Position numbers and translations under genes: made by a program. This document shows positions 9,956-28,717 of a stretch of 44,535 nt of DNA, piece after piece. Within the stretch, counting starts at the first letter, position 1, and each line of letters opens with the position of its first letter. The DNA comes from a virus. Under the pieces are notes generated by a model. That model saw only the letters and a list, made by a program, of their open reading frames with translations. It searched no databases and was not told the DNA's origin. Location: the IMG/VR virus record IMGVR_UViG_3300001282_000797, positions 125 to 44,659 of that record; one strand, given 5' to 3'.

Positions 9956-10720
9956 TTAAAATTTAAAATTATATTCTGATTCAGGATTTCTTGGAAATCT
10001 TGAAAGTTTATTAAACGCAATATAACTCACGTATTTATTAAATGTAATTAAATTATTCTTTTTAATCAAATCACAAAATTCTTCTTTACTAACAAAATTA
10101 TTTATAACCTCATTAAATTTATTTTTTTTTCTTTCTAAAAAAACAGTATCATCACTATATATAATATTTTTAAATTTAAAAACATCCGTCAAATTAGTTA
10201 TTGATAATATTTTTATTTTACCGGAAGAGTAAATGTTTAATTTATAAACACCATTGTCCGATAAAAACTTTTTCAATGAAATAATAAACCCCTCATTCCC
10301 CGCAATCGAGACGTGATGCCATTTATTTTTAATCTTACTAATACACCCATCCCCGTCAAAATAACCCCTAACAAAATGTTTAATTAAATTAGGTTCAATA
10401 TTGGGGAATATTATTTTAAATGTTTTATTATTAACACAACCTAAATCAAATAATCTATTAACCAATAAATTTGAATAAACCGTTACCGAACAAAATTTAG
10501 ATTTACCATCTATGCCGCATTTTATTGGCTTGTCACATTCTATATCTGTAAGAAATTTTTCAATATGGGGTTTATCAGTATCTTTTAATTTTAATTTTAA
10601 CTCTCCACTTTTACCATCTTTCATTCTGGTATACCCATCCGCATATAAAAACCCTAACCAATATGACGACTTCTCATTTAACTCATCAAAAAAATGTTCA
10701 TTAAAACTATATTTTCTCAT
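9956..10720 (-). CDS. LAGLIDADG homing endonuclease
   Basis: This 254-residue product has two LAGLIDADG helices: YWLGFLYADG at residues 20-29 and HFVRGYFDGDG at about 115-125, spaced about 95 residues apart as in monomeric double-motif enzymes. Each motif ends in the metal-binding acidic residue. The enzyme makes a site-specific double-strand break that spreads its own gene. No intron or intein boundary is visible, so it appears free-standing, inserted just before the Dam-type gene. Its ATG overlaps the last 14 bases of a 52-residue ribbon-helix-helix-like gene, the same arrangement as the HNH endonuclease at 27929-28549. It is very AT-rich, like its partner. Confidence 0.88.
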   Translation of the reverse strand: MRKYSFNEHFFDELNEKSSYWLGFLYADGYTRMKDGKSGELKLKLKDTDKPHIEKFLTDIECDKPIKCGIDGKSKFCSVTVYSNLLVNRLFDLGCVNNKTFKIIFPNIEPNLIKHFVRGYFDGDGCISKIKNKWHHVSIAGNEGFIISLKKFLSDNGVYKLNIYSSGKIKILSITNLTDVFKFKNIIYSDDTVFLERKKNKFNEVINNFVSKEEFCDLIKKNNLITFNKYVSYIAFNKLSRFPRNPESEYNFKF

Positions 10721-10865
10721 AATACTCTTTAACTAATTTTTGGATAAACTTGGAAATACTAACCTCCTCGTTTTTCATTTTATCAAAAAGATATCGGTTA
10801 ATACTTATTCCGTATTTAACTTTCTTATCTTCGTCATTTTTATTAGGTCGTCCAATCTTTCCCAT
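10707..10865 (-). CDS. Ribbon-helix-helix-like small protein (52 aa), homing cassette 1
   Basis: This short gene has ATG at 10865, stop at 10707 and 52 residues. The N-terminus is basic (MGKIGRPNKNDEDKKVKYG), followed by a short strand (YGISI), a helix (RYLFDKMKN), a turn and a second helix (SISKFIQKLVKEYYEKI). This is the layout of MetJ/Arc-type ribbon-helix-helix DNA-binding proteins. A second 52-residue protein of the same layout lies at 28530-28688, also overlapping a homing endonuclease start. It probably represses its own cassette through the conserved upstream element at 10866-10894. The fold and role are inferred; the gene's existence is supported by the matched pair. Confidence 0.72.
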   Translation of the reverse strand: MGKIGRPNKNDEDKKVKYGISINRYLFDKMKNEEVSISKFIQKLVKEYYEKI

Positions 10866-10894
10866 ATATTATAAATATCCCAAAGAATAGTAAA
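10866..10894 (-). promoter_or_regulatory. Conserved promoter/operator of homing cassette 1
   Basis: Minus strand: TTTACTA (10888-10894), 8 bases, GATATTTATA (10870-10879), 4 bases, then the ATG. The same two blocks with the same 8- and 4-base spacings lie before the second small RHH-like gene (28689-28717). The gaps differ in sequence while the blocks are identical, which suggests a protein-binding site. Confidence 0.65.
10867..10878 (-). promoter_or_regulatory. AT-rich upstream element ATATTTATAATA (cassette 1)
   Basis: This is an exact copy of the 12-mer found before the genes starting at 8999 and 15805; here it overlaps the conserved cassette element and ends 1 base before the ATG at 10865. 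Confidence 0.4.
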
Positions 10895-10933
10895 AGTGCG
10901 TTAAAAAGTGAAGTTTTTTTGAGAAAAAAATAG

Positions 10934-10964
10934 TTTTTCTTTTAAAATTTTTCCCCTATATTTG
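10934..10964 (+). promoter_or_regulatory. Bacteroidetes-type promoter for the small membrane protein
   Basis: TTTT (10934-10937), exactly 19 bases, then TATATTTG (10957-10964). The -7 element is a perfect TAnnTTTG match and the -33 element is 3 of 4. It lies 21 bases before the ATG at 10986 and drives the plus strand. Confidence 0.55.
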
Positions 10965-10985
10965 ATATAAATTAATATTATTTAT

Positions 10986-11204
10986 ATGGAAACAGTAGAA
11001 GGTCAGATTATCGACGAAAAAGACATTAAAACAACAGAAAACATTAATCAAAATACAAAGGGTGAAAAAGCAGGTTGTAAATCTTGCAAAAAAAAAGGAA
11101 TATCAAACACCGATTGGCTTATGATAATCCTTTCATCTTATATTTTATTCTCATCAGTTTATGGTACTATAAAATTGATTAAAGAACTTATGTTGTTATT
11201 CTAA
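10986..11204 (+). CDS. Small single-span membrane protein (72 aa)
   Basis: I do not recognise a family for this 72-residue product. Residues 1-44 are polar, with a CKSC pair (about residues 31-34) in a Lys-rich context; residues about 45-70 form one hydrophobic span (WLMIILSSYILFSSVYG). A host-type promoter precedes it. It is one of the few plus-strand genes in this half of the window and converges with dnaJ, with only 2 bases between the stop codons. Confidence 0.65.
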   Translation: METVEGQIIDEKDIKTTENINQNTKGEKAGCKSCKKKGISNTDWLMIILSSYILFSSVYGTIKLIKELMLLF

Positions 11205-11206
11205 AA

Positions 11207-12130
11207 TTACTTACGAGAGAATTTAACATTTAATTTTATAAACAAATCCCCAACATTATTAAACCCTTTAGATTTAACTCGAAGGGGTTTTGTTGTGTCA
11301 AAGTCAATCGGCAATTTAACCGATATATTACCTTTTGGATGATTAACATCTAAAGTATCTTTCTTTAACGACTCTAAATCAAAAAAGGTATTATACACTA
11401 AATCATTACCAAGTTTTTCAAAATTATTTTCAGGTGAAACTTTAATCCTTAAAACTAAATTTCCGTAAATACCATTATGGAAATCACCTTTCCCTTGTAA
11501 TCTTAAAAATTGTCCATCATCCACAGCATGAGGTAATTTAATTGATAAATTTTCAATAGAACTTTTGGTTGTTTCTCCATTACAAGACCCACAAACTCTT
11601 GAATATGAGAACCCTTTTCCATTACAAGAATAACAAACTTGTCTCACCATCTGAATAAACATTCCTGTACCAATTCTTTGGATTGTGAACCCTTCTCCTC
11701 TACAAGTACCACAATTTACCCTATCACCACCACTACCATTACAACCGCCACATTTATGTTTTCTACTATATGTGATTGTTTTATCAGAACCATTATAACT
11801 TTCTAAAACCCCAACCATAACTTCAATCACTTTATCCGGAACTGATGGTTGTCTATGAGAGTGCATGTTATTAAACATATCTTCAAATGGGTTTCCACCA
11901 CCACCAAATGGGTTAAAACCACCACCAAAAGGATTTGACCTTTGATTATCGTATTGTTGGCGTTTATCGTTGTCCCCTATTGTATCAAACGCTTCAGAAA
12001 TTTCTTTAAACTTATTCTCATCACCACCTTTATCCGGATGATGTTCCACCGCCAATTTTCTATAGGATTTTTTAATCTCTTCTTGGGTAGCTGTTTCATT
12101 AACACCTAATGTCTCATAAAAATTTTTCAT
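11207..12130 (-). CDS. dnaJ: DnaJ-family (Hsp40) co-chaperone
   Basis: This 307-residue protein has the type I DnaJ order. The J domain (residues 1-65) has HPD at 31-33, which stimulates DnaK ATPase. A Gly/Phe-rich linker (66-86) follows, then four zinc-binding CxxCxG repeats from C127 (CGGCNGSG, CGTCRGEG, CYSCNGKG, CGSCNG), then the beta-sandwich substrate-binding region (LRLQGKGDF onward). It is shorter than the roughly 375 residues usual for bacterial DnaJ, mostly by a short C-terminal domain. It is probably used with host DnaK for folding virion proteins or remodelling replication complexes. Phage-coded type I DnaJ is uncommon. It converges with the small membrane gene and diverges from the gene at 12185. 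Confidence 0.95.
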   Translation of the reverse strand: MKNFYETLGVNETATQEEIKKSYRKLAVEHHPDKGGDENKFKEISEAFDTIGDNDKRQQYDNQRSNPFGGGFNPFGGGGNPFEDMFNNMHSHRQPSVPDKVIEVMVGVLESYNGSDKTITYSRKHKCGGCNGSGGDRVNCGTCRGEGFTIQRIGTGMFIQMVRQVCYSCNGKGFSYSRVCGSCNGETTKSSIENLSIKLPHAVDDGQFLRLQGKGDFHNGIYGNLVLRIKVSPENNFEKLGNDLVYNTFFDLESLKKDTLDVNHPKGNISVKLPIDFDTTKPLRVKSKGFNNVGDLFIKLNVKFSRK

Positions 12131-12184
12131 ACTTATTTACTTATATTTAATTTAAAACTAATCTATTTAATAACAACTATCAAC

Positions 12185-12826
12185 ATGAATTACTTAATTG
12201 TTCTATTCAAAAATAAAATAAAAAAGAAAATAATCAATAAATTTAAGACACATAAAAAGTCAGATGATTTATTTATTACCTTATCTAATCAAAGTAATGA
12301 TGTTATTTTTGAAAAAAAGTATACGAATGGGGATGAGTGTAGTTATGAATTAGCAATATTGGAAAAGTCTCCCGATACATTTCTTCCTGTATATTTAAAA
12401 GATGAGTTGGGTCGACAAATTAAAGTTAATTTAGACGATGATGATTATACAATAACAAAAATAATAACCTATAAAATTGAGGAGACTTTATTAGACCTCA
12501 CTTTAAATAAAAAAATAAACTCTCTCGAGTTTATTAAATTATATTTAGACCCAGTGGGGTTTAAATTAGTATCAAAATTAAATAATAAAATTATCGTTCA
12601 GAATGACGATAAAGTTAATTTATTCATTTTAAAAAACGAGTATGATTCCTCTCGTTTTATAGATTCTATTTCAAATAAATTCATTTCAGAAAAAAGAATG
12701 GATTGTATGTTTGTTAAAGATTATTCCATCACCCAAAAAAAATCCCTGTATAATTTATTAATTAATCAGGGGTTTTCAAAAGACTACCTTCTTCGGTATT
12801 CAACAACTCATCCAGTAAAAAAATAA
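12185..12826 (+). CDS. Hypothetical protein (213 aa)
   Basis: I do not recognise this 213-residue product. The N-terminus is highly basic (FKNKIKKKIINKFKTHKKS), followed by alternating strand/charged text and an acidic patch (LDDDDY). There is no signal peptide or clear membrane span. It is one of the isolated plus-strand genes, divergent from dnaJ with a 54-base gap. Its last 65 bases overlap, tail to tail, the end of the minus-strand 88-residue gene. Confidence 0.65.
   Translation: MNYLIVLFKNKIKKKIINKFKTHKKSDDLFITLSNQSNDVIFEKKYTNGDECSYELAILEKSPDTFLPVYLKDELGRQIKVNLDDDDYTITKIITYKIEETLLDLTLNKKINSLEFIKLYLDPVGFKLVSKLNNKIIVQNDDKVNLFILKNEYDSSRFIDSISNKFISEKRMDCMFVKDYSITQKKSLYNLLINQGFSKDYLLRYSTTHPVKK
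12735..12772 (-). terminator. Possible intrinsic terminator of the 13.9-12.8 kb minus operon
   Basis: On the minus strand CCCTG pairs with CAGGG across an AT-rich loop of about 18 bases and is followed by A and eight T residues (12735-12742). The 5' arm covers the last codons of the 88-residue gene. The stem is short, so the call is modest. Confidence 0.4.
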
Positions 12827-13028
12827 ATTCAGTGTTTGAAATATCAATTTTGAATTGTTTATAATTTCGGTCAACATCTCTGAAATTTTTTTGAACTGTT
12901 TTATAATCTTTCTCTTTAAGTTCAAAAGCTATCATACATTTTCCATCGGGGAATAAACTTTCAATAGCATCAGATATCATCGCCAATTTTTGAATTATCC
13001 CATCAACACTTTTTTTATTCTCATCCAT
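12762..13028 (-). CDS. Hypothetical protein (88 aa)
   Basis: I do not recognise this 88-residue product. It is acidic and soluble, with predicted helix-strand-helix text (IIQKLAMISDAIESLFPDGKCMIAFELKEKDY). The start overlaps the end of the 63-residue gene by 34 bases, as expected for coupled genes in a packed operon. Its end overlaps the plus-strand 213-residue gene. Confidence 0.6.
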   Translation of the reverse strand: MDENKKSVDGIIQKLAMISDAIESLFPDGKCMIAFELKEKDYKTVQKNFRDVDRNYKQFKIDISNTEFIFLLDELLNTEEGSLLKTPD

Positions 13029-13186
13029 AATGTAAGTTTTTCTGGTATTATTTGTTTTGGAAGAATGTCCTCCTTTTTTATTTTTACTATATCTTTGATT
13101 AATTTTGATTTTTCATTATGTAAATCAATCTCATCTTTTTTAATCTCATTCTGATACCAGTTTAGGTGTTTTAAGCTCTTCTTCAT
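12995..13186 (-). CDS. Hypothetical protein (63 aa)
   Basis: This 63-residue product is Lys-rich, with an amphipathic N-terminal helix and an ending (LTLWMRIKKVLMG) that could touch a membrane or a partner protein. It overlaps its upstream neighbour by 41 bases and its downstream neighbour by 34 bases. I do not recognise it; coding is supported mainly by its place in the chain of overlapping genes. Confidence 0.5.
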   Translation of the reverse strand: MKKSLKHLNWYQNEIKKDEIDLHNEKSKLIKDIVKIKKEDILPKQIIPEKLTLWMRIKKVLMG

Positions 13187-13574
13187 TATCTTCTAACTCA
13201 ATTTTAGTATTTTTTATATTAAATTTTAAACTTTTCAAATTATTTAAATTTTGTTTTTCAAAAATATTTTTTAATTCATCCACTTTGTTTTGGAACAGTT
13301 TGTCTTTTTCTTCTCTCTCTAAATTATATTTAATAATATTTTGTAAATTTTCAGAAGTTTTTTCAACATTACTCTCACTTATTTCACTAACAAATGAAAA
13401 AAATCTATGGTCAGTCATTGTACTTTCTTGTTCCATTACTTTATCTTCCTCAACATATTTTTTAGGTAGTTTCCAACTCATTGGGAAAGCAACATCAAAA
13501 CTTAAATATTTTTCAATTTTTCTAACTGATTGTAAGTAAGGGAATAGTAGTGAAAATTCTTTATATAAGCTCAT
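13146..13574 (-). CDS. Hypothetical coiled-coil protein (142 aa)
   Basis: The ATG at 13574 (MSLYKEFSLLFPYL) is preferred over 13604, because it follows the stop of the upstream membrane gene (13577) without overlap. The N-terminal 45 residues are hydrophobic/aromatic with DVAFPMSWKLP; residues about 75-142 are charged and helical, likely coiled coil, with many Lys, Glu and Asn. I do not recognise a family. It sits in a chain of small genes of unknown role. Confidence 0.65.
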   Translation of the reverse strand: MSLYKEFSLLFPYLQSVRKIEKYLSFDVAFPMSWKLPKKYVEEDKVMEQESTMTDHRFFSFVSEISESNVEKTSENLQNIIKYNLEREEKDKLFQNKVDELKNIFEKQNLNNLKSLKFNIKNTKIELEDNEEELKTPKLVSE

Positions 13575-13576
13575 AA

Positions 13577-13762
13577 TTAATATTTTATAATATAGGTTAA
13601 ACAATAGGATATTGCCAATCCTAAATAAATAAGTTCCCCATTATTCAATAAAAACCTTTTCGGTGGATTTGATATTAGGGAACCTATTAATCTAATAACC
13701 GTTCTTGAAACGGTCAAAATCGAAAAGATAAATATAAACAATAAAATTGTTTTAATATCCAT
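13577..13762 (-). CDS. Small membrane protein (61 aa)
   Basis: Two hydrophobic segments can be seen: residues about 5-20 (TILLFIFIFSILTVSR) and about 44-59 (LIYLGLAISYCLTYII), separated by a Pro/Lys/Arg loop. This suggests a two-span membrane hairpin. Its stop is 2 bases from the next start and its start is 2 bases from the Hc1-like gene's stop, so it is in the same operon. No family recognised. Confidence 0.65.
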   Translation of the reverse strand: MDIKTILLFIFIFSILTVSRTVIRLIGSLISNPPKRFLLNNGELIYLGLAISYCLTYIIKY

Positions 13763-13764
13763 AA

Positions 13765-13941
13765 CTACTCGTCTTTTTTTCTTTCCGATAAAATTTCTTT
13801 TCGTAAAGTATCTAATGATTTTTTTAAATCTTGTGCTAATTTTCTAGCTCTAGTACCAGCACTTTTATTACCTGCGAAGAATTTTGTTGCGTCCACCGAT
13901 AATTCTTCGGTTAAAGCCTTAATTTGTTCTAATGTTTCCAT
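13765..13941 (-). CDS. Histone H1-like (Hc1-type) DNA-binding protein (58 aa)
   Basis: This short gene has ATG at 13941 and stop at 13765. The text FFAGNKSAGTRARKLAQDLKKSL followed by LRKEI is the hallmark of the small Hc1-type histone-like proteins common in Bacteroidetes, whose core is K-GNKAAGTRARK. Family members are short, helical and Lys-rich, and are thought to bind DNA or nucleoid. Here it may help compact phage DNA or alter the host nucleoid. Length (58) is close to chromosomal homologues. It leads a run of small minus-strand genes. The family call rests on the GNKSAGTRARK core; the role is inferred. Confidence 0.8.
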   Translation of the reverse strand: METLEQIKALTEELSVDATKFFAGNKSAGTRARKLAQDLKKSLDTLRKEILSERKKDE

Positions 13942-14021
13942 TTCAAAGTTTGTTAATAATTTATTTTATATCTTTAAAAGTAAATTTAATTATACCATTG
14001 TAAACACTATATGGTGTTTTT

Positions 14022-14489
14022 TTATGTTTTGAGGTTATTATTCAATACTTTGTATATCATTAAAATCATTTCTAAATCAGATTTTGTAAATGTCTTATCT
14101 AAATTAAATAAATCGGTAAAAAATTCACCTACAGAAATTCTAATTTTTTCTTCCTTTTGATGGTAAAAAATTTCATCAAAAAAAGATTCAAAATAATCGT
14201 AATGACCACCTTTAAGATGGAAATTAATATTTTCTTTTTTAAAGTTTTCAATTGTTTTTTTCCAACACCAATCAAAATGGTTTAAATTATCTTTATCAGA
14301 CAAAATTATTTTTGTTTCGTTAGAAATAGTGTTTTGACCTAAATAGGTCTGTAAAATTAGAGAATTAAGTGAATGGGAAAAGTCTGAATATAATTCTAAT
14401 TTTTCGGGAATAACATTATTCACCCTAAACCAGACTTCTACATCTTCGGGGGACATTGGCTTTGTTATATAATTAAAAAAATTCTCCAT
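14022..14489 (-). CDS. Hypothetical protein (155 aa)
   Basis: I do not recognise this 155-residue product. It is soluble and Asp/Glu/Phe-rich, with MSPEDVEVWFRVNNVIPEKL near the start and a helical C-terminus (LEMILMIYKVLNN). Its ATG lies in the 3' arm of a perfect 11-base-pair hairpin (14482-14508) followed by seven T residues that encode Asn-Phe-Phe, so expression may be tied to that structure. Confidence 0.65.
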   Translation of the reverse strand: MENFFNYITKPMSPEDVEVWFRVNNVIPEKLELYSDFSHSLNSLILQTYLGQNTISNETKIILSDKDNLNHFDWCWKKTIENFKKENINFHLKGGHYDYFESFFDEIFYHQKEEKIRISVGEFFTDLFNLDKTFTKSDLEMILMIYKVLNNNLKT

Positions 14490-14508
14490 AGAGTTAGTCT
14501 ATGGAGAA
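14475..14508 (-). terminator. Perfect hairpin plus T-run overlapping a start codon
   Basis: On the minus strand TTCTCCATAGA (14498-14508) pairs perfectly with TCTATGGAGAA (14482-14492) across loop CTAAC, followed by TTTTTTT. It has the form of an intrinsic terminator for the upstream 422-residue gene (stop at 14537), yet the 3' arm contains the ATG (14487-14489) of the next gene. It may be an attenuator or a start-site switch. Confidence 0.75.
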
Positions 14509-14536
14509 ATTATAATTCATTTTATTTTTTTGTAAA

Positions 14537-15805
14537 TTATTGAGTCTTACCTTTGTAAGTAATTAGTGATTTCATTCTGTCAAACTCTTCTGATATTTGT
14601 TTTGATTGTTTAGGTTCTAACGACTCTAATTTAGCCATTAATTTAGACCCTTCATCTTCACCAGCATTATCATTAACAGTTGGTTGTGGAGCTTTATTGT
14701 AAGCTTTCTTTTTAATTTGACCCAATATATTCTTTTTCCTAATTGTATTTCGTTTTTTGTTAACATCGGATTCTCCAGTGTTAGCCCATTCCGGATTATT
14801 ACCTGTTCTTGATGACCCCTCAATGTTATCTGTTATCCACTCTTCATTTGGATTTATTTCATCATACATTAAATTCTCTTGTCCTGCCGCTGTTAAATTA
14901 TCAGTATACTCCTCAACAGCCCCTGATGGGATATAAGCCTTTTTATCCATTTTAGTTAACTCACCATTACCTTTTGGGAAAATTTTAGGTTCTGTAGTAT
15001 AATCACCTTTAGAACCATCCTTTAGATATTCTTTCATTTTTTTTGTAACAGATTTAAGATAATCATCATTTTCTTTACCTGATTTTTTATGAATTTGAAT
15101 TTGTTTATCTAAACCTTTAGGTGTACCCATAGATTTAATGTTTTTTTCTTTACTCTGTTCCATAATAACACTCTCAATTAACTCAATCATTTGACTTTCA
15201 GTTAATTTAACAGACTCTTTGTGTTTACCCTCTTCACCCATCTCTAATTTTTTACTTTTTCTTAACATTTTAAAATCTTCAGTATCTAATCTATTGTTTT
15301 TATTTTTATCTAAAACTCTTTGATTCCCTTTTAAAGATTCACCCATCTCCGATTTTTTACTTTTTCTCAACATTTTAAAATCTTCAGTATCTAATCGGTT
15401 ATTTTTATTTTTATCTAAAACTTTTTGATTTCCTTTTAAAGATTCATTAACATCAGTTCCACAAAATTTTTCAATTCTATCTTTGGGAGCGTTATTTTCT
15501 TTATGCCATTTACAAGCCTCTTCATCATAATCATAATTACCGTCGGAATCAACCTCACCTTCTTCTTCTTCAATATAGTCGAAAGATTGACTTTTTGGGA
15601 ATTTTTTTGAAACATCGTAAATTCCTTCACCACACTCTGAACATTCTCCTTCATACATCATTCCACCACACTCACAAATATTAGATTCTTTCTCATCCAT
15701 ACTAGTTTTTATTTTAGAGACTAAATTATCTGCTCTTTCTTCTAAAGTTTCATTTAAAATTTTAGACACTAAATTTTCTAAATAAGTCGTATTTAATTTT
15801 TTCAT
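14537..15805 (-). CDS. Hypothetical virion/assembly protein with zinc-finger-like and EF-hand-like motifs (422 aa)
   Basis: Residues about 43-58 hold a four-cysteine cluster (CECGG ... CSECG) likely to bind zinc. Two almost identical tandem repeats of about 34 residues follow (about 122-190), each containing DKNKNNRLDTEDF, whose spacing (DxNxNxxLxxxDF) resembles an EF-hand or dockerin calcium loop. The rest is charged and Lys/Glu-rich with a helical LTESQMIELIESVIMEQ segment. There is no signal peptide. The neighbours 15829-19754 look like a conserved set of large-phage proteins that could act in head assembly; this one may be a scaffold or inner-head protein. Motifs are seen; the role is a guess. 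Confidence 0.65.
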   Translation of the reverse strand: MKKLNTTYLENLVSKILNETLEERADNLVSKIKTSMDEKESNICECGGMMYEGECSECGEGIYDVSKKFPKSQSFDYIEEEEGEVDSDGNYDYDEEACKWHKENNAPKDRIEKFCGTDVNESLKGNQKVLDKNKNNRLDTEDFKMLRKSKKSEMGESLKGNQRVLDKNKNNRLDTEDFKMLRKSKKLEMGEEGKHKESVKLTESQMIELIESVIMEQSKEKNIKSMGTPKGLDKQIQIHKKSGKENDDYLKSVTKKMKEYLKDGSKGDYTTEPKIFPKGNGELTKMDKKAYIPSGAVEEYTDNLTAAGQENLMYDEINPNEEWITDNIEGSSRTGNNPEWANTGESDVNKKRNTIRKKNILGQIKKKAYNKAPQPTVNDNAGEDEGSKLMAKLESLEPKQSKQISEEFDRMKSLITYKGKTQ

Positions 15806-15815
15806 TTTTTGTTTT

Positions 15816-15827
15816 TATTATAAATAT
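15816..15827 (-). promoter_or_regulatory. AT-rich upstream element ATATTTATAATA
   Basis: This is an exact copy of the 12-mer also found before the genes starting at 8999 and 10865, here 10 bases upstream of the ATG at 15805 and just after the stop of the 261-residue gene. It probably gives the 422-residue gene its own transcript start. Confidence 0.45.
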
Positions 15828-15828
15828 A

Positions 15829-16614
15829 TTATTTTTTATTTAAAAGCATTTTTTCGTACTCATAAGAGATAATTGTTTTAATAACATTTTCACTTATATT
15901 ATGTTTTTCACTAATATTTTGAATCGCTTTCTTAACCATATCATTCTCATATAGTTTTAAAGACTTAATGTCACCTTGATTACAATATGGAAATTTTTTA
16001 CATTTTTTCTTAACTTGAACAAATTTTCCACCAGGGATTTGAGTTTTAGAAGCACCTCTCCAATCTTTTTTACTTGGTGATTTAGCCCAAGCCGCGGGAG
16101 TTTCATATGAACCAGATGAACCCGAACCTGTAGATTCAGTTGCCTCAACTTTTTTAATATCACCATCTTCATCTTCTTTTATACAGTTAGGCACCATTCT
16201 ATCACCTTTCTTTTTTACACCTTTTTGTTGATATCCTACCCAACATTTTTCTTGCATTTCTTGTTTGGTTGTTGAAAATAATGGTCCTTCAAATCCACCA
16301 GCTGAAGATGCACCCATAGATTCAGTTGCCTCTTCTTTCTCACCCATAATAGGTAAGGATGATGATAATTTACCAACAGGTTTTTTTAATTTAGTATTAC
16401 CAACTAATTTAGTTGCAATCCCCTTATTAATTGGTCTCTTAATCATGTCTAATTTTTTATTTTTTTTATTTGATTCACCTAACTCTTTTGTTATGTCTTG
16501 AGCAGCAATTATAGTATCAACCACATATCCGTCCTTATAAGGAGCTGTTTGGGTTACTTCACCATTAATTTTCTTCTTTAAATCATCAGACATTTCATCT
16601 TCTTCTATTTTCAT
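15829..16614 (-). CDS. Conserved large-phage protein with two EATES-type repeats (261 aa)
   Basis: Two related segments are visible: EATESMGASSAGGFEGPLFS (about residue 95) and EATESTGSGSSGSYETPAAW (about 157), each a Ser/Gly-rich hinge followed by an aromatic anchor. Between them is WVGYQQKGVKKKGDRMVPNC, and after the second KKDWRGASKT and a basic Cys-containing stretch (KKKCKKFPYCNQGD). Similar text occurs in structural-region proteins of large environmental phages, but I know no function. The C-terminus is a helix. It is co-directional with its neighbours, 3 bases from the next gene. A role in head assembly is an inference from neighbours. Confidence 0.6.
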   Translation of the reverse strand: MKIEEDEMSDDLKKKINGEVTQTAPYKDGYVVDTIIAAQDITKELGESNKKNKKLDMIKRPINKGIATKLVGNTKLKKPVGKLSSSLPIMGEKEEATESMGASSAGGFEGPLFSTTKQEMQEKCWVGYQQKGVKKKGDRMVPNCIKEDEDGDIKKVEATESTGSGSSGSYETPAAWAKSPSKKDWRGASKTQIPGGKFVQVKKKCKKFPYCNQGDIKSLKLYENDMVKKAIQNISEKHNISENVIKTIISYEYEKMLLNKK

Positions 16615-16617
16615 TTT

Positions 16618-16863: not shown

Positions 16864-16864
16864 T

Positions 16865-22374: not shown

Positions 22375-23059
22375 TATTTTTTATTAAATTTAAACTTTTA
22401 TCATAAATTTCGTCCCAATTTATACATTCAGATATTGCATCATAAAAATGATTTTGAATTCTATTATTTTTTTCTATTAACATAGCAAGTTCAACTATAT
22501 CAATATCCAAACCTAAATAAGATAAATATTCATTATTTGTATAGTATTTTATTTCAACATTATTTTTAATTTTAATTTTGCTACCACAAGCGTTAACCAT
22601 ACCAACACATACATCCACAACATATTTTTTTCCACACTTATTTGGATTTAAATTATCCGGTAATAAATTAAAAAATTCCTTGAATGTTTCATTTAACAAG
22701 CAATCAGACATACATTCTAATGTTTTAGATTCCGATGTTGAATTAAAACTTGCGTTATTACCTTTTTGTTGACATAGAGAAATTTCTAATACATCCTTAT
22801 TTTCATTATAATTAACCGCCATTATATCAAGTTTTTTTAAATCTTGAGGTAATTTAATTAAAGTTCGTCTTTTTTGATTTTCAATTATTAAATCTTCTCG
22901 GATAATCGCTTTTATAGTATCTTTAGATGTCTTACTAAAATAACTTGAGTATTTTTTTTTTACCTCATTACGTAATTGTTCACCATTTAAATTTGATAAA
23001 TCCATTGACATTAATATTTCTAATATAATACTTGGGTCAGCTCCTTTTTTTGTTGTCAT
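22361..23059 (-). CDS. Hypothetical protein paired with the methyltransferase; possible restriction endonuclease
   Basis: The ATG at 23059 (MTTKKGADPS) gives 232 residues; an upstream ATG at 23113 adds a hydrophobic stretch overlapping the terminator region and is less likely. Residues about 5-70 are helical and basic, possibly a DNA-binding region. VVDVCVG, about 20 residues, then VEIKYY fits the spacing of a PD-(D/E)XK nuclease core, though this pattern is loose. It overlaps the methyltransferase start by 14 bases. Several cysteines cluster at about 85-165. I do not recognise a named family; the restriction enzyme reading comes from context plus the D...ExK pattern. Confidence 0.55.
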   Translation of the reverse strand: MTTKKGADPSIILEILMSMDLSNLNGEQLRNEVKKKYSSYFSKTSKDTIKAIIREDLIIENQKRRTLIKLPQDLKKLDIMAVNYNENKDVLEISLCQQKGNNASFNSTSESKTLECMSDCLLNETFKEFFNLLPDNLNPNKCGKKYVVDVCVGMVNACGSKIKIKNNVEIKYYTNNEYLSYLGLDIDIVELAMLIEKNNRIQNHFYDAISECINWDEIYDKSLNLIKNNGIK

Positions 23060-23093
23060 TTTATTAATTATATAATTTTTTAAAAAGATAATT

Positions 23094-23124
23094 AAAAAAA
23101 GAATACCCATCAAGAGATGGGTAC
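23094..23124 (-). terminator. Intrinsic terminator after the gp46-like gene
   Basis: On the minus strand TACCCATC (23116-23123) pairs with GATGGGTA (23104-23111) across a 4-base loop, followed by TTC and seven T residues. It starts 5 bases after the gp46-like stop (23128) and should end the recombination operon. Confidence 0.88.
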
Positions 23125-23127
23125 TTT

Positions 23128-25497
23128 TTATTGAGAAACATAACTAATATTTTCTTCTTTTTTAATCCTCACCACATTGTCCGCCCAATTCGTTACCAGT
23201 GGATTGTGTGTGATGACGAATATCTTCTCAAAATACTCTTTAATCTTGGTAAAGAACTCCGATACCATCTCCAAGTTATCGTTGGATATCTTCCCGAATA
23301 CTTCATCAAACACCACAACATTGGCTCTTGGTAATGAACATATCTTACTCAACACCGCTCTCAACGCTAATGAAGCAATTGACCTTTCATATCCTGAACC
23401 GGATGACATTGGTTTCTCAACTTGAGTATTGTTATCAATCATTAAAAAATCAACCTCATTCTTGTCGTTAATTCTAACCTCTAATCTGAAGTGACAACTA
23501 TCTTCCAACAACCTTTGAAGTTCACTATTAATAAGTGGCATCATCGTTTTCATTATAAATTTGGTTACCCCATTTTTACCAAATATTTCCAAATATATTT
23601 TATAAATTCGTTCTCTCTCGGCTTCTTCACCAATTTTCCTAATTGTTTCCAAGTTAGATGTTATATTGGTTATAAGATTGGTTATTGTAAATTTATTGTT
23701 AGAGATACTGGTTTCTATAGTTTTTTTCTCACCTTCAAGTTCATCTATTCTAATTCCGGCTTTGATTAACAATCCATCGGTTTTATTATTTTCAATAACC
23801 TTATCCTGAACTTCGGTATATCTTTCCAATTTGGTTTTCAACGCCTCAATCATTAACTGGAATCTCTCAACACTTAATTCATATTTTTCTTTAATAAGTT
23901 TGTTTTTTTCATACTCATCAAATTCTTTTTTAAGATTAACAAAACCGAGTTCTTTGCTGGTTAAATCACGCATTAACCCCTCTAATTCCCCTTTGTGTGT
24001 GATAAACCCCGCAAGCTCTCCAATTTTTGCGTTGGTAATTGCTGCGTTCATAAGTTCAATACCACAGTGTTCACATTTGATTCCACCATCAACAGAACTT
24101 TTAAGTTCCTCAATGTTTTTAATCTTTGCGTTGTTGTCGGCTTGTTTGGTAATTAAATCTTTAATCTCTTGTTTTACCTCATCGTGTTTATCCTCGTGGT
24201 AAAATTCGGATGGTTCAACAACTTTAACCCCATCTCTATCAGAAACGGATTTAGATTTTTGTGTCTCCAACCCGCTAATTTCTTCCTGAACCTTATCCGG
24301 AGATACCATTGTTAATTCCTTATCAATGTTGTGTTTGGAATTTAATAACCCATCGCGATACTGTTGACCTTTAAGAATCCTTTCTTTAGTATCACCCAAT
24401 TGACCATCCAATGTAAGATTAGTTTCCGTTAGATTATCAATTGTGTCTTGACTGGTTTGGTTATCCGTTTTAAGTTGTTCTGAGTTATAAATGTTTGATA
24501 ACATTCCTTTGGAAAATTCACTATAAATTTCTTTGGCAGCTTCTTCCTTACGCTTAAGAAAATCTAACCCCATAAATCTTGAAAGAACCTGACCCCTCGC
24601 TGTTGGTTTGGCATCAATTAGTTCTTCCAAGTTAGTGGCAGTTGTTAGGATGGTCATTAAGAAGTCCTCTTTAGTTCCGATAGACGTTTTGATAAACGCC
24701 TCGGTCTCTCTTCGTTGTTCTCCGGTGAAGTTCTGCAAACTACCATCAGACAATCTTTTATAAAAGTCCAACTCGGTCTTAACCGTCCATTCGTTTTTCT
24801 TTGATAACTTTCTCTCAATATTTCTCAATATGATATACTCCTCACCATCAATTGTAATTTCTCCTTTTACAGCAACTTTATTTCTTTCGGTGAATCTATT
24901 AAATATCTCCTCGGCTTTGGATGTCTTGGTGGTCTCATTAAAGAATAAGAACATAAGTAAATCTACCGTAAGAACCGTCTTACCTCCAAAGTTAGGTGGG
25001 TTTGATTCCACAACCGTAATCCCATCACACTTCTCAAAATCTATCTTCTGATTCTCACCATAGGATAAAAAGTTTGAGAATTCAATATTTTTGATATACC
25101 ATCTTTTAAATGGTGATGCGTCGGTTTGGTCCTGCAACAATTTGTTATCCACAATACTATTAAGCTGGTAGATATCATCGTAGTGTTCCATATTCCCTTT
25201 TGACTCCAAGAATGAACGAACTAACTCTAATTGATAGTTCTCATCCAAAATGTTAAAGGAGATGTCTACGGTATGCGTGGTGTCGTCAGCAACCTTTGTT
25301 TTTGTTATTACATTAACATTGGTTGTGTTATACTTCTTTTGAAAGTAATGACGAACACTCTTTATTTTTTCTTGTGTAAAATTTTCTACATAATCCTCCC
25401 ACACAATCTGTAGGTAAGGATTATCAAAGTTTGTGATATCTAAATCTTTTATCATTATTGTGTAATTAAATTCTATTGCAGGATTAAATAAATCCAT
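23128..25497 (-). CDS. Rad50/SbcC-like recombination nuclease subunit (T4 gp46-like) with N-terminal extension
   Basis: This is a 789-residue SMC-type ATPase. The ATPase N-lobe begins at about 132 (RWYIKNIEFSNFLSYG). The Walker A-like loop is SNPPNFGGKT at 165-174, with Pro-Pro where most have NGxGKS. Coiled coils flank a zinc hook CEHC near residue 472. The C-lobe has signature SSGSGYERSIASLAL, Walker B VVVFDEVFG and the H-loop in FVITHNP. With gp47 it resects DNA ends for recombination-dependent replication. Residues about 20-125 precede the normal start and look like the C-terminal Rad50-binding part of an Mre11/gp47 protein, missing from the short gp47-like product here. Confidence 0.93.
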   Translation of the reverse strand: MDLFNPAIEFNYTIMIKDLDITNFDNPYLQIVWEDYVENFTQEKIKSVRHYFQKKYNTTNVNVITKTKVADDTTHTVDISFNILDENYQLELVRSFLESKGNMEHYDDIYQLNSIVDNKLLQDQTDASPFKRWYIKNIEFSNFLSYGENQKIDFEKCDGITVVESNPPNFGGKTVLTVDLLMFLFFNETTKTSKAEEIFNRFTERNKVAVKGEITIDGEEYIILRNIERKLSKKNEWTVKTELDFYKRLSDGSLQNFTGEQRRETEAFIKTSIGTKEDFLMTILTTATNLEELIDAKPTARGQVLSRFMGLDFLKRKEEAAKEIYSEFSKGMLSNIYNSEQLKTDNQTSQDTIDNLTETNLTLDGQLGDTKERILKGQQYRDGLLNSKHNIDKELTMVSPDKVQEEISGLETQKSKSVSDRDGVKVVEPSEFYHEDKHDEVKQEIKDLITKQADNNAKIKNIEELKSSVDGGIKCEHCGIELMNAAITNAKIGELAGFITHKGELEGLMRDLTSKELGFVNLKKEFDEYEKNKLIKEKYELSVERFQLMIEALKTKLERYTEVQDKVIENNKTDGLLIKAGIRIDELEGEKKTIETSISNNKFTITNLITNITSNLETIRKIGEEAERERIYKIYLEIFGKNGVTKFIMKTMMPLINSELQRLLEDSCHFRLEVRINDKNEVDFLMIDNNTQVEKPMSSGSGYERSIASLALRAVLSKICSLPRANVVVFDEVFGKISNDNLEMVSEFFTKIKEYFEKIFVITHNPLVTNWADNVVRIKKEENISYVSQ

Positions 25498-25502
25498 ATT
25501 TT

Positions 25503-26018
25503 TTAGTTCACTTCTTCAACCTCTTCTTGAATGGCGTCTCCACCGTCTCTCCTATCTTGAGCTTCCAACACATTGTCTAAATTCCAACCATCATAAGCCG
25601 TTAATTTCACACAACCACCTTCCATCCAATAGTATTCCGACATCCATTCATCCCATTTGGAATCAACTAACTTAATGAAGTTCTCGTCATTACCTCTATC
25701 TCGGTATCGTTTGATGAACTCCTCTTTTCTATCACTATCCGGATAAACCAAATAGAAGAAAATACAATTATCCAATAAAGCGTCTCTAACTTCTTTATGT
25801 GAAGACACAAAGATGTATTTATATTTACCAATATTATCTTTGATATGGGTAATGTAGTTCTGTGGAAACTCTGGATTTCTAACCTTTTCACCACTCTCAT
25901 TAACAACCCAGCTAAAACCACTTGAATCGGAATCCAAAGTGGTTTTAGGGTTGTTTATATGATAAGTTGTTTTTCCTACTCCAGGAAATGCGGATACTAT
26001 TTTAGTTCTCAACTTCAA
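25503..26018 (-). CDS. P-loop nucleotide kinase-like protein (171 aa)
   Basis: Walker A is SAFPGVGKTT (residues 9-18). It is followed by LDSDSSGFSW, FPQNYITHIKDNIGKYKYIFVSSHKEVRDALL, then FYLVYPDSDRKEEFIKRYRDRGN with a basic, lid-like segment, and a helix with WDEWM. This is the layout of adenylate/nucleoside-monophosphate kinase-like phage proteins. Substrate is unknown; a role in nucleotide supply is likely. The C-terminus is acidic. It lies 5 bases before the gp46-like gene and overlaps the 87-residue gene by 17 bases, so the three form one transcript. Confidence 0.75.
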   Translation of the reverse strand: MKLRTKIVSAFPGVGKTTYHINNPKTTLDSDSSGFSWVVNESGEKVRNPEFPQNYITHIKDNIGKYKYIFVSSHKEVRDALLDNCIFFYLVYPDSDRKEEFIKRYRDRGNDENFIKLVDSKWDEWMSEYYWMEGGCVKLTAYDGWNLDNVLEAQDRRDGGDAIQEEVEEVN

Positions 26019-26265
26019 CTTCAGGTGTTACTACCTCAGCCTCAACGATGTTAATATCATTTACATCACTTACAACCTCGGCGTTTATATCCATTGTTTC
26101 ACCATTCTCATTTTGGTATTGAGCTTTCATTGTTTCCATTTGTTTCTCAAACATTTCGGTATACTCCGCTTGAGCTTTCTTTCTTAATCCTCTAAGAGAG
26201 TTGTTTCTTGTTGTAACTCTTGTTTTGTGAGCTTTTGCTCCACCTCGTAATTTTGACTTTGGCAT
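26002..26265 (-). CDS. Small hypothetical protein with basic N-terminus and acidic tail (87 aa)
   Basis: Residues 1-35 are very basic (MPKSKLRGGAKAHKTRVTTR), the middle is a charged helix (YTEMFEKQMETMKAQYQ), and the last 30 residues are acidic with repeated VEAEVV. A nucleic-acid-binding tail is possible. It overlaps the kinase gene by 17 bases. No family recognised; similar short proteins recur in large phages. Confidence 0.65.
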   Translation of the reverse strand: MPKSKLRGGAKAHKTRVTTRNNSLRGLRKKAQAEYTEMFEKQMETMKAQYQNENGETMDINAEVVSDVNDINIVEAEVVTPEVEVEN

Positions 26266-26277
26266 GATTGTTTTTAT

Positions 26278-26784
26278 TTAATTGTTATTTATTTCTTTTT
26301 CTATTTCTTCTAAAGTTATTTCCGGTTCATTCTCAACTTGTTCTCTTAATTCTTGAGTTAACATATCAGTAATTCGTTGATATGGATTTTCATTTGACAC
26401 CTCCATTTTAGACCGTTCTATTTTTTCATCTGTCGAATCATCTCTATACATTTCCAACCATTCAGGTCTCTCTTGGACTTGAATACTATTCACCTTTTCA
26501 ATCATTTTTTGAACTTCTGTTTTACTACCTTGTAACATTTTAGATAGTTTAACTTTTCTCTCAATTGATTTAAATCGTGAGTAATAATCCCCCGTAATTT
26601 CATCAAAATTTATATCTATCTCATTTTGGTCCAAATATTCAACAATATTCATAACCTCAACACATTCATCACTGAGACCCATATCAATTATTAATTGAAA
26701 AAAATCCACACATTTGATTACTTTTCTAGTTTGAGTTTTTTCTTTCAAATACTTAATTACAAAATCACCTAATTTACTTTCCAT
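26278..26784 (-). CDS. Hypothetical protein (168 aa)
   Basis: I do not recognise this 168-residue product. It is helical and acidic overall, with a Lys/Arg cluster early (KYLKEKTQTRKVIKC) and a long charged region after residue 75. There is no signal peptide or membrane segment. It lies 3 bases after the 115-residue membrane gene and 12 bases before the 87-residue gene, in one operon leading to gp46. Confidence 0.6.
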   Translation of the reverse strand: MESKLGDFVIKYLKEKTQTRKVIKCVDFFQLIIDMGLSDECVEVMNIVEYLDQNEIDINFDEITGDYYSRFKSIERKVKLSKMLQGSKTEVQKMIEKVNSIQVQERPEWLEMYRDDSTDEKIERSKMEVSNENPYQRITDMLTQELREQVENEPEITLEEIEKEINNN

Positions 26785-26787
26785 ATT

Positions 26788-27135
26788 TTAATTTTTCACT
26801 GGTCTGTTCTCCTCAAACCATTCAACAATAGAATTTATTATCCACACAGCCCCTGATGATAATAGACCATCAAAGAACCAAGACACATTTTCGGAAATAC
26901 CGAATAATTGGTGTATTGGAGAGTATAATAAAAAACTCAATAAAAATCCACTCCAGGTGCTAAAACACATTGGACAGGTTAATATACCCGATATAAAACG
27001 TCCTAATCCGTTAAAAGGTGTGTATTGGTTATTTCCCCATTTTTTAAAGAAATCTCTCAATCCCTGAAAGATTGACCCGTATACCATAATGTTCATAAGC
27101 CCATAACTTAAAATGAACCAAACTAATATTTCCAT
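26788..27135 (-). CDS. Membrane protein with CPMC motif (115 aa)
   Basis: Hydrophobic segments lie at about residues 3-25 (LVWFILSYGLMNIMVYGSI), 47-72 and 83-103. Between them is LTCPMCFSTWSGF, a Cys-Pro-x-Cys motif followed by a Trp-Gly that recurs in small phage membrane proteins (DUF1360-like text). The C-terminus is charged and cytoplasmic. No biochemical role is known. It is tightly packed with its neighbours (1- and 3-base gaps). Confidence 0.65.
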   Translation of the reverse strand: MEILVWFILSYGLMNIMVYGSIFQGLRDFFKKWGNNQYTPFNGLGRFISGILTCPMCFSTWSGFLLSFLLYSPIHQLFGISENVSWFFDGLLSSGAVWIINSIVEWFEENRPVKN

Positions 27136-27136
27136 A

Positions 27137-27850
27137 TTATAAATTTTCTGTTAAGTTAGAACCTTTCATATAAACCGCACCACGCTCTATATTACTTGAT
27201 TCCAATTGTTTATTTATTTTTTCAAGCTCTTCTATTCTTGTGTTCTTTAAAGATAGTTCTTTTCTTAATTTCTGTAAAGTTTCTTGGATAAGTTTTAATT
27301 TATCATTTCCGGAATCAACCTCAACTATAACTTCTTTAATAACCTCTACCACCTTCTCCACCTCAATAATTCTATCCACCGGAACTTCCTTAATAACCTC
27401 CACTATCTTCTCAATAATAATTGGTTCAGGTTCGTCCCTTTTTTCCTCTATAATTGGGACGGGATTGTCGTAAATATATACTATTTTTTCGACAGGAACT
27501 TCCACTTTTATCTCCCTAATGACTTCTCTATCAACATATTTGATAATTTCTATTTCCGTGGGTGGGCTCGGAACTTCTTTAATGATTTCCACTTCCTTAA
27601 TGACCTCAACTTCTTTGATAACTTCAACAGGAACTTCTACCCGTATTTCACGGATTACCTCAATTTCTACCTGTTTTTCCTCAACAATACTCGTTTTTCC
27701 CGAATCATCACCAAGCAGACCATATTTAGTTGTGTTAAATCCACCAGTAAAACATTTTACGATGAATTTATCAATGTCCTCAATATCGTTTAATTTACAA
27801 TACTCATTGACACTAGTTAATTGACTATTTGTTAACACGATTTGCTTCAC
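27137..27850 (-). CDS. VEVIKEV-repeat protein (237 aa)
   Basis: Residues 1-50 form a small globular start (LTNSQLTSVNEYCKLNDIED). Residues about 55-180 repeat units such as VEVIKEVEVIKEVP, alternating hydrophobic and charged residues with Pro breaks. Residues about 185-225 are a classic coiled coil (LIQETLQKLRKELSLKN). Such KEV/VEV repeats occur in many large-phage and eukaryotic scaffold-like proteins. It is probably an extended fibrous or oligomerising protein; role unknown. The start overlaps the 34-residue gene by 26 bases. Confidence 0.65.
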   Translation of the reverse strand: MKQIVLTNSQLTSVNEYCKLNDIEDIDKFIVKCFTGGFNTTKYGLLGDDSGKTSIVEEKQVEIEVIREIRVEVPVEVIKEVEVIKEVEIIKEVPSPPTEIEIIKYVDREVIREIKVEVPVEKIVYIYDNPVPIIEEKRDEPEPIIIEKIVEVIKEVPVDRIIEVEKVVEVIKEVIVEVDSGNDKLKLIQETLQKLRKELSLKNTRIEELEKINKQLESSNIERGAVYMKGSNLTENL

Positions 27851-27929
27851 GCTCTTTGTCTTCTTGTTCTATTTTTTTAAGTAATTCTTCCCACTCCTCA
27901 TCGGAGTATTTATGTCTAAGATTTCCCAT
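27825..27929 (-). CDS. Very small conserved-type protein (34 aa)
   Basis: ATG at 27929, stop at 27825. The product is MGNLRHKYSDEEWEELLKK followed by an acidic/basic helix. The start shares one base with the HNH endonuclease stop (TAATG), and the end overlaps the 237-residue gene by 26 bases, indicating translational coupling. I recall similar short proteins with the HKYxDEEW text from other large phages, but no function. Confidence 0.55.
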   Translation of the reverse strand: MGNLRHKYSDEEWEELLKKIEQEDKEREANRVNK

Positions 27930-28549
27930 TATATTATTTTATCTCGTTTAATTATATTCTCAATAGCCCATAAAGGTTGTAAATTAGTATAATGACATAA
28001 TTTTTTTAATTCATCATCATTTTTAGCGGATGATAATGGAATAATATGGTCAATATGCCAACCAAATAATCCGTGATTCTCCCAACACATACCATCTTTA
28101 AATTGTTTTTCCAAATAACTTTTTAATTCTGAAGGTGAACAACCAATTAAATCAAAGGTGGATTCTCTATTACTACCCAAAATTTTATTTGTCTTACTTC
28201 TATACAACATTTTTAATTTTAAGATAGGGTCATCTTTTTTTCGTTGAACCATTTTTGAGTTAATAAAATCTCTATTCCTTTCAACATAATCTTTTTTATA
28301 TTGTTCAACTTTATCTTTATTATTATTCCCCCAAATTTTAACTCTATCAATAATTATTTTTTGATTTTCAATGTAATATTCTTTAGATTTTTCTAATATT
28401 TTTTCTTTATTATCAATATAATATTGTTTTTTATATTCTTTAACACAAACTTTACAATTGTCCTGTAAACCATCCTTAGAACTTTTATTTTTATTAAAAT
28501 CAAATAATGATTTATCTACCGAACATTTTTTACAAATTTTCTTTTTCAA
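27929..28549 (-). CDS. HNH homing endonuclease
   Basis: This is a 206-residue protein. The N-terminus has a zinc-finger-like pair, CKKC (about 6-9) and CKVC (about 32-35). The middle is Lys/Tyr-rich and helical, probably DNA-binding. The C-terminus has WHIDHIIPLSSAKNDDELK, then HYTNLQPLWAIENIIK, the DH...N...N pattern of HNH nucleases. The enzyme would nick or cut a specific site to spread the cassette. It is free-standing, between the gp47-like gene and the 34-residue gene. Its ATG overlaps the end of a 52-residue RHH-like gene by 20 bases, mirroring the LAGLIDADG cassette at 9956-10865. Confidence 0.88.
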   Translation of the reverse strand: MKKKICKKCSVDKSLFDFNKNKSSKDGLQDNCKVCVKEYKKQYYIDNKEKILEKSKEYYIENQKIIIDRVKIWGNNNKDKVEQYKKDYVERNRDFINSKMVQRKKDDPILKLKMLYRSKTNKILGSNRESTFDLIGCSPSELKSYLEKQFKDGMCWENHGLFGWHIDHIIPLSSAKNDDELKKLCHYTNLQPLWAIENIIKRDKII

Positions 28550-28688
28550 ATTTATAATCTTCTAATAATTTATTAACGAGTGACGACAAGTTAATATGAA
28601 GACCCCTGTAATATTCCAACAATTCAGGTTTAATAGCTATCGATATACTCTGTTTTTTTTCTTCATTATTTTTTTTGTTTCTTCCCAT
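28530..28688 (-). CDS. Ribbon-helix-helix-like small protein (52 aa), homing cassette 2
   Basis: ATG at 28688, stop at 28530, 52 residues. The N-terminus is basic (MGRNKKNNEEKKQ), then strand SISIAIK, helix PELLEYYRG, a turn and helix LSSLVNKLLEDYKFEKE. The layout and exact length equal the product at 10707-10865; both start MG and keep I-S-I, S-x-x-x-x-KL and the charged end. It is a probable DNA-binding regulator of the downstream HNH nuclease. Fold and role are inferred from the pattern. Confidence 0.72.
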   Translation of the reverse strand: MGRNKKNNEEKKQSISIAIKPELLEYYRGLHINLSSLVNKLLEDYKFEKENL

Positions 28689-28717
28689 ATTATATAAATA
28701 TCATAGTTTTTAGTAAA
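28689..28717 (-). promoter_or_regulatory. Conserved promoter/operator of homing cassette 2
   Basis: Minus strand: TTTACTA (28711-28717), 8 bases, GATATTTATA (28693-28702), 4 bases, ATG. Blocks and spacings are identical to those before cassette 1 (10866-10894), while the spacer bases differ. Confidence 0.65.

Follow-up and report, generated by a model that had tools for sequence, protein, structure and literature searches.

The viral record IMGVR_UViG_3300001282_000797 of the IMG/VR database carries two gene pairs, here called cassettes A and B, in which a 52-residue gene with similarity to ribbon-helix-helix (RHH) DNA-binding proteins overlaps the start of a homing endonuclease gene. The stretch analyzed (44,535 nucleotides (nt), positions 125 to 44,659; hereafter the window) is nearly all of the 44,659-base record, and the blastn matches of its dam region, named after a Dam-type methyltransferase gene, were four records of uncultured phages of 635–735 kb. 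Both cassettes lie on the minus strand, with the upstream element before the RHH gene and the nuclease gene after it:

9956..10720, minus strand: LAGLIDADG homing endonuclease (nuclease A), 254 residues, 14-nt overlap with RHH gene A
10707..10865, minus strand: RHH gene A, 52 residues, assigned by homology to RHH B, recurrence in IMG/VR and an AlphaFold monomer model
10871..10877, minus strand: TATTTAT, promoter -10-like element of cassette A
10892..10909, minus strand: candidate RHH operator of cassette A (ACTTTTTAACGCACTTTT), with ACGCACTTT in all 23 distinct A-type elements; possibly a direct repeat, its class having no significant inverted repeat
27929..28549, minus strand: zinc-ribbon HNH / endonuclease VII-like homing endonuclease (nuclease B), 206 residues, 20-nt overlap with RHH gene B
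28530..28688, minus strand: RHH gene B, 52 residues, Pfam CcdA above the gathering score
28694..28700, minus strand: TATTTAT, promoter -10-like element of cassette B
28719..28734, minus strand: candidate RHH operator of cassette B, inverted repeat TTGTTA-AAAA-TAACAA
27931..28746, minus strand: insert of cassette B, by comparison with the empty locus L349, borders ambiguous by a few bases
9106..9951, minus strand: Dam-type methyltransferase directly downstream of cassette A, flank of insertion site A

The coordinates of both small genes and of the 14- and 20-nt overlaps in the first-pass annotation of this DNA were exact, and its end coordinate, 28717, lies inside the upstream control region of cassette B. 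Nuclease B starts with TTG, where most of its listed relatives have ATG.

The small proteins are of RHH type and under selection

RHH A (MGKIGRPNKNDEDKKVKYGISINRYLFDKMKNEEVSISKFIQKLVKEYYEKI) and RHH B (MGRNKKNNEEKKQSISIAIKPELLEYYRGLHINLSSLVNKLLEDYKFEKENL) are homologous (30% identity, expectation value (E) 5e-5). RHH B matched Pfam CcdA at 1.1e-5, above the gathering score, in an alignment covering only positions 1–34 of 71, and RHH A matched phrog_582 (Arc-like repressor) at 0.03. Among 36 diverse RHH relatives, 21 matched Pfam CcdA, seven BrnA and one RHH_3 at E ≤ 0.01; we take CcdA and BrnA to be RHH families. The AlphaFold monomer models contained no strand and two helices each, at residues 24–31 and 37–50 in RHH A (predicted local distance difference test (pLDDT) 77.5) and 21–29 and 34–51 in RHH B (pLDDT 84), and in both proteins the two predicted helices fall at RHH positions. 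Family profile matches and paired helices together support the earlier proposal that these genes are of RHH type. The best BFVD match was an uncharacterised 50-residue phage protein (template modelling score 0.77, E 9e-3), and searching the RHH profile against PDB sequences gave repeat proteins as top matches and 2kel, presumably an RHH repressor, as the sole nearly full-length match (E 2.2).

The proteins are about 50–54 residues long, the aligned members stopping shortly after helix 2. The median ratio of non-synonymous to synonymous substitution rates (dN/dS) was 0.10–0.12 in three subfamilies (22, 27 and 18 distinct sequences; 45–47 codons), and the RHH protein is under purifying selection. 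Searches of isolate phages returned nothing for RHH A or for L206 and two weak Microviridae matches for RHH B; the latter are unannotated stretches of pig-faeces Microviridae, about 40% identical to RHH B (MG883711.1:4926-5051, E 0.01; MG945134.1:4724-4822, E 0.5). In GTDB genome contigs, 47 stretches fitted a search pattern and none was confirmed.

Recurrence of the gene pair

Protein searches of IMG/VR gave 34 loci with RHH A and 79 with RHH B (from the best 80 of 272 relatives). Two of these 113 RHH-first loci (L073, L092) are cut by the contig end, leaving 111 assessable, and in 105 of the 111 the RHH gene is overlapped by a frame starting as a nuclease (82 zinc ribbon, 23 LAGLIDADG), five of these frames being truncated (L066, L067, L085, L100, L102) and four cut by the contig end (L043, L044, L060, L088). 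Among the remaining six, L015 and L031 retain a nuclease remnant, the RHH gene runs straight into dam in L017 and overlaps a resident gene by 4 nt in L071, and in L091 and L093 the RHH gene and upstream element are intact, the nuclease is lost and METKI, from the first codons typical of the nucleases, is fused to a C5-methyltransferase. The nuclease is regarded as lost there because the same C5-methyltransferase comes after the nuclease in L098 and L105; with METKI fused in this way, methyltransferases were considered and rejected as a further partner class. The in-frame METKI-fused C5-methyltransferase (L091:322-2457, L093:4143-6278) carries a LAGLIDADG intein.

Whole-contig RHH searches of 71 contigs found at most six matches per contig; a 309-kb record had five at E ≤ 3.2e-12 and one at 0.003. 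Of 24 further matches fetched, L217 was dropped as a spurious weak match and L212 and L214 were L053 and L038 fetched again, and all 21 further RHH loci showed the overlapping nuclease layout. The recurrence beside homing endonucleases is not chance. The first-pass annotation had staked its idea of a reusable control module on an RHH fold and on such recurrence in other genomes, a check that it passes, as RHH-type matches and the recurrence were both found.

Searches started from the flanking genes gave the same association. In the Dam-first sample (80 loci, the best of 485), 15 loci had RHH and nuclease, one had RHH only, none had nuclease only, 61 had neither and three had a short flank; RHH and nuclease come and go jointly here, and a role of the RHH gene as resident dam regulator was rejected. 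The SbcD-first sample (80 loci, the best of 107) had five loci with RHH and nuclease, five with a more distant downstream nuclease without RHH and 70 with neither. Fifty of the 80 Dam-first contigs were also searched whole; they were hand-picked, mostly longer, and many known RHH carriers were left out, so that the RHH frequency among them is no unbiased estimate. Eight of the 50 carried RHH genes, in 12 copies, each directly before a nuclease: nine by position relative to the HNH search and three at the dam site with LAGLIDADG enzymes, the copy in L276 being damaged (a short nuclease with no usable start in the overlap). Zinc-ribbon HNH homologues occupied 18 places in these contigs (pieces merged by hand; some contigs near-identical), nine with an RHH gene and nine without. 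The RHH gene itself is seldom found without a nuclease or nuclease remnant. Six nuclease-B relatives in named phage records had no recognisable RHH gene upstream.

Nuclease families behind the RHH gene

Nuclease A matched Pfam LAGLIDADG_3 (5e-7) and phrog_4645 (1e-42). Nuclease B matched phrog_1035 (endonuclease VII, 1e-20), with Pfam HNH at only 0.13, and its endonuclease VII-type core, WH-DHI ... NLQPL, is invariant across 21 aligned sequences; the two enzymes thus belong to different families, as had been stated at the outset. Eleven representative downstream proteins were scanned (10 against Pfam, 10 against PHROGs, nine in both) and motifs inspected. The partners are LAGLIDADG enzymes, some with a zinc ribbon, zinc-ribbon HNH/endonuclease VII-like enzymes, and zinc-ribbon NUMOD3 enzymes with weak TnsA/endonuclease I similarity, these two below the Pfam cut-offs, so that the proposed pairing of one module with different nuclease families holds with these three families. 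L047 had no match in a Pfam-only scan and L042 none in PHROGs. The only non-nuclease match among the scanned downstream proteins was one methyltransferase, and at the limits used, no toxin family appeared among the Pfam and PHROGs matches of the 11 representatives and the two window nucleases.

A constant overlap register and exchange of nucleases

Identical sequences were merged for the overlap, exchange, core-pattern and element counts. RHH and nuclease genes overlap by 11–53 nt in a single register (2 mod 3) in 98 of 103 distinct combinations of RHH and downstream sequence, most commonly by 20 nt (53 cases), the longest values resting on alternative starts; the other five comprise one 4-nt overlap and four without overlap. 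Control overlaps at the same loci were divided 70:64 between two registers, most commonly with 4 nt.

Three A-type loci beside dam (L029, L032, L034) document a change of nuclease behind the same control half. Their RHH genes are pairwise identical at 145–146 of 147 nt and their upstream regions share 52–57 of 60 nt, and downstream only 57–63 of 150 nt are shared at the best shift; the nucleases are two divergent LAGLIDADG types and one HNH type, and the similarity breaks off in the RHH/nuclease overlap. With near-identical RHH genes before divergent nucleases, the control half and the nuclease have therefore been swapped at the overlap.

Insertion as a unit at defined sites

The operator, RHH gene and nuclease are inserted together at defined intergenic sites. 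L349, a relative with an empty cassette B site, reads ...GGTAAAT/AATGGGAAATC..., and the same bases flank the insert of about 816 nt in the window. Besides containing operator, RHH gene and nuclease, the insert supplies SbcD with a new stop codon, and the start codon that follows stays intact. Counted as alleles, the dam site was empty in 61, occupied in 16 and short of flank in three of 80, and the SbcD site was empty in 70 and occupied in five of 80, with a nuclease further downstream in five. L321 and L324 have a second copy of the 3′ end of the sbcD-like gene following the cassette, which looks as though the gene end had come in with the insert.

For the A-type loci, 36 of 38 upstream flanks could be matched to empty dam alleles. 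In 18 of these 36 the match stops just outside the operator, 36–59 nt ahead of the RHH start; in 17 it stops 90–240 nt ahead of that start, and in one (L016) it runs to 3 nt from it; L034 is identical to the empty L253 over 123 nt up to a border outside the operator. Cassette A replaces the sequence from this upstream border to the dam start codon, and dam is therefore probably read from the cassette. All 38 A-type loci adjoin dam (37 in the dam cluster, and L017 with dam directly after RHH). The RHH class KSA-LL is spread over five insertion sites, and four RHH classes occur at site 4.

An upstream element that follows the RHH class

TATTTAT starts 8–14 nt before the RHH start in the 92 distinct element/RHH pairs, with the exception of L026 (31 nt), which was dropped from the ACTTT and correlation analyses, leaving 91 pairs. 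ACTTT stands at a fixed place before TATTTAT and is exact in 74 of the 91. The core pattern ACTTT-n10/24-TATTTAT had 106 distinct matches in 1.15 Mb of partly overlapping loci; 77 of them lead into an RHH gene, 76 of these with a spacer of 14 or 15, vs six of the 29 core matches elsewhere. A blind operator-first scan of IMG/VR with one operator found nine loci; in eight of them the operator is followed by an RHH gene and then by a nuclease frame with a zinc ribbon, of 82 residues in two of the eight.

The stretch before or over ACTTT differs by RHH class, the class letters being RHH strand residues 2, 4 and 6 after KK, which presumably face DNA. TCACAC was found in 29 of 30 KSA-LL elements vs one of 62 others (L069, from the nearest relative class, a one-residue variant), and 15 KSA-LL elements hold the full TGTGAA...CACAC repeat. 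ACGCAC was present in 23 of 23 A-type elements vs none of 69 others, a TGTT...TAACA repeat in 10 of 10 SSA elements, on a slightly looser pattern and with window B included, vs none of 82 others, and TGATACTATTA in five of five KSA-LP elements vs none of 87 others; visual comparison links TGATACTTT to the R,S,T class (4/4) and AAAGTATAACTTTTCATACTTT to the K,A,S-LF class. Inverted repeats scored above shuffled sequences in the SSA (6.0 vs 4.4, 0/100) and KSA (4.5 vs 3.7, 0/100) classes.

Over the 91 pairs, operator distance correlated with distance in the RHH strand (r 0.46) and in the RHH helices (r 0.48); the operator–nuclease correlation given RHH was -0.03, a value equalled or exceeded in 211 of 300 permutations. 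In the 55 HNH cassettes assigned to a site, the operator followed RHH given nuclease and site (0.26, 0/500 permutations) and hardly the nuclease given RHH and site (0.05, 86/500), and the nuclease followed the site given RHH (0.51, 0/500). The upstream element thus tracks the RHH gene, not the nuclease, and the nuclease tracks the insertion site.

TATTTAT also precedes other phage genes at many loci, often starting 11–13 or 20–29 nt upstream, and other genes of the window (9017-9025, 15820-15828, 33857-33865); it was therefore taken as a general promoter element, which it may be in this phage lineage; TATTTATA would be the reverse complement of the T4 late promoter TATAAATA. Same-family HNH nucleases at L298:5248, L308, L358 and L383 have TATTTAT upstream and neither RHH nor ACTTT, those of L308 and L358 lying just after a coiled-coil gene resembling window 27137-27850. 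Several resident dam upstream regions, in empty loci among L222-L297, share, by eye, a TATAC-like element with TTGCTTTTT or TTGCCTTTTT some 25 nt upstream of it, an arrangement reminiscent of T4 middle promoters. Elsewhere in the window, three large proteins (2033-4492, 32254-33816, 36931-40230) match parts of phrog_15511, whose function is unassigned.

Proposed mechanism and alternative explanations

With the layout, the constant register, insertion as a unit, the change of nuclease behind a near-identical RHH gene and operator, and the match of element to RHH class demonstrated, the cassette is probably an autorepressed, translationally coupled homing element of the form operator and promoter, RHH repressor gene, homing endonuclease gene. 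Judging from sequence, an RHH dimer would bind the element beside or across the -35 region, repressing its own operon; RHH would be made first, and coupled re-initiation at the overlap would yield a low level of nuclease. On entry of the cassette into a repressor-free cell or genome, brief derepression would let the promoter fire, the nuclease would cut the empty allele, and RHH would then shut the operon down. Control by a distinct protein acting at a DNA site of its own would be independent of the nuclease that follows, and the module would therefore be reusable. That the small protein keeps nuclease expression in check, as first proposed, has indirect support in the class-specific upstream element within the cassette.

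Several results weigh against this reading or narrow it. RHH A had no Pfam match at E ≤ 1, and Foldseek against PDB gave no match for the RHH model. ACTTT had one mismatch in 12 and was worse in five of the 91 pairs; inverted repeats were not significant against shuffles in the KGS class, which holds the A type (37/100 shuffles as high), or in the small RHH classes; and L407 has an operator match without a cassette. RHH correlated with the site given the nuclease (0.18, 0/500), and since nine of the 18 HNH places have no RHH gene, this nuclease family can do without the regulator. The RHH strand was no better tied to the operator than the helices (partial correlations 0.25 vs 0.28) and the permutations leave kinship among the sequences in, so that coevolution of contact residues between RHH and operator, which is suggested by the class-specific elements, is unproven at the contact level; the match between element and RHH may partly be shared descent.

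A wider version is tentative, and we hold it to be rather doubtful: operator and RHH would form an independent switch lineage of many specificity classes, recombined at the stop/start overlap onto at least three nuclease families, in which, as in prophage immunity groups, incoming cassettes would be silenced by a resident switch of the same class and the nuclease would fire only in a switch-free cell. At least eight operators differ by eye. An excess of differing classes among co-resident cassettes was not significant (same-class in two of 45 pairs, shuffled mean 4.6, 604/5000 as low).

Type II toxin-antitoxin operons with RHH antitoxins such as CcdA and BrnA are likewise two-gene operons with likely autoregulation, and the cassettes could be units of that kind, in which the nuclease is a toxin or addiction module and RHH neutralises it by binding. 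CcdA is indeed the best Pfam match, and an antitoxin gene followed by an overlapping toxin gene would fit the gene order; however, toxin binding is the task of the C-terminal part of CcdA, and these short proteins, with RHH B aligned to CcdA 1–34 of 71, have no such part. The pairing of near-identical RHH proteins with one HNH enzyme as well as two divergent LAGLIDADG enzymes, intact RHH genes without an intact nuclease (L015, L017, L031, L071, L091, L093) and the nine of 18 HNH relatives without RHH also speak against neutralisation, which we consider quite unlikely.

That RHH is cargo, benefiting the phage for example against host toxin-antitoxin defence or through anti-homing immunity and so paying for the selfish nuclease, is likewise improbable. 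Purifying selection would agree with it, and so would the six of 111 loci in which RHH stayed intact although the nuclease had decayed or been lost, but it does not predict an upstream element that tracks RHH, and 42 of the 50 chosen related contigs, which are fragments, had no RHH match. Guidance of the nuclease to its homing site by RHH could draw on the weak RHH–site correlation and on the dam-adjoining position of all A-type loci; it is hardly probable, as KSA-LL occupies five sites, site 4 holds four classes, the nuclease tracks the site better (0.51) and the RHH-matched DNA lies within the cassette. A mere leader frame, setting nuclease translation by coupling with a protein of no role, would account for the register (98/103) and has a counterpart in T4 mobE, perhaps limited by such coupling (PMC2988022), but is very improbable given dN/dS of about 0.1 over 45–47 RHH codons, recognisable RHH profile matches and the matched upstream element.

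Relation to known systems and implications

The first-pass annotation knew of no described two-gene homing unit, a claim that has to be withdrawn: one paragraph of PubMed Central (PMC) article PMC12619734 (November 2025) reports that in moraphages PacI-like putative homing endonucleases are associated with CcdA/HicB-like antitoxins, and offers regulation or, alternatively, a fitness benefit of the antitoxin as the reason. As described there, the moraphage pairs resemble the cassettes in joining a small antitoxin-type gene to a putative homing endonuclease, in multiple copies in some genomes, and in occurring in large aquatic phages with mostly Bacteroidota hosts predicted; they differ in that the paragraph describes no operator, overlap register, module exchange or empty sites, and the words LAGLIDADG and HNH do not occur in the main text. 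Homing endonuclease control at an operator beside the gene's own promoter is described for I-TevI of phage T4, which is under transcriptional autorepression (PMC2988022). There, however, repression is exerted by the nuclease itself, at an operator similar to its homing site, whereas the cassettes have a separate, exchangeable gene for a presumed repressor; an operator that does not track the nuclease given RHH argues against the nuclease as operator binder here. T4 mobE after nrdA is similar in a start codon overlapping the upstream gene, with presumed translational coupling, but that gene is a resident phage gene in the account of PMC2988022, and here it travels with the nuclease. Endonuclease VII-motif homing endonucleases and nuclease hot spots are treated in PMC6083498 and PMC10448857; F-CphI and its kind share the catalytic motif type of nuclease B, but "repressor" and "operon" are absent from the main text of PMC6083498, and the relevant passages of PMC10853773, PMC8987985 and PMC10272220 contain no such two-gene unit.

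Type II toxin-antitoxin systems share the RHH DNA-binding domain with the cassettes, which differ from them in having no toxin-binding tail and in having homing-type nucleases of several families as partners. In Rhizobium phage 16-3, a helix-turn-helix gene of 69 residues and an endonuclease VII-like gene share a 47-nt overlap (p099/p100; L417:1260-1469 and 1423-2220), a possible parallel with another repressor fold; in two relatives of the helix-turn-helix gene (Ruegeria phage V16, Paracoccus phage Pkon1) no nuclease is annotated immediately behind it. The operator, its match to RHH, the exchange of nuclease families and the empty sites were not found in searches of the open PMC library, subscription papers, preprints and supplements lying outside those searches. 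New here is the class-specific upstream element inside the cassette.

To our knowledge, little is known outside T4 about how free-standing homing endonucleases are restrained from harming their own phage. The cassettes split control from cutting and, as a natural set in which small proteins, DNA elements and nucleases are matched to one another, make regulation, zygotic induction and module exchange of selfish genes directly testable; they would also supply a collection of repressors of about 50 residues with different specificities. A control unit joined to several cutting enzymes suggests a portable on/off switch for selfish genes in large phages.

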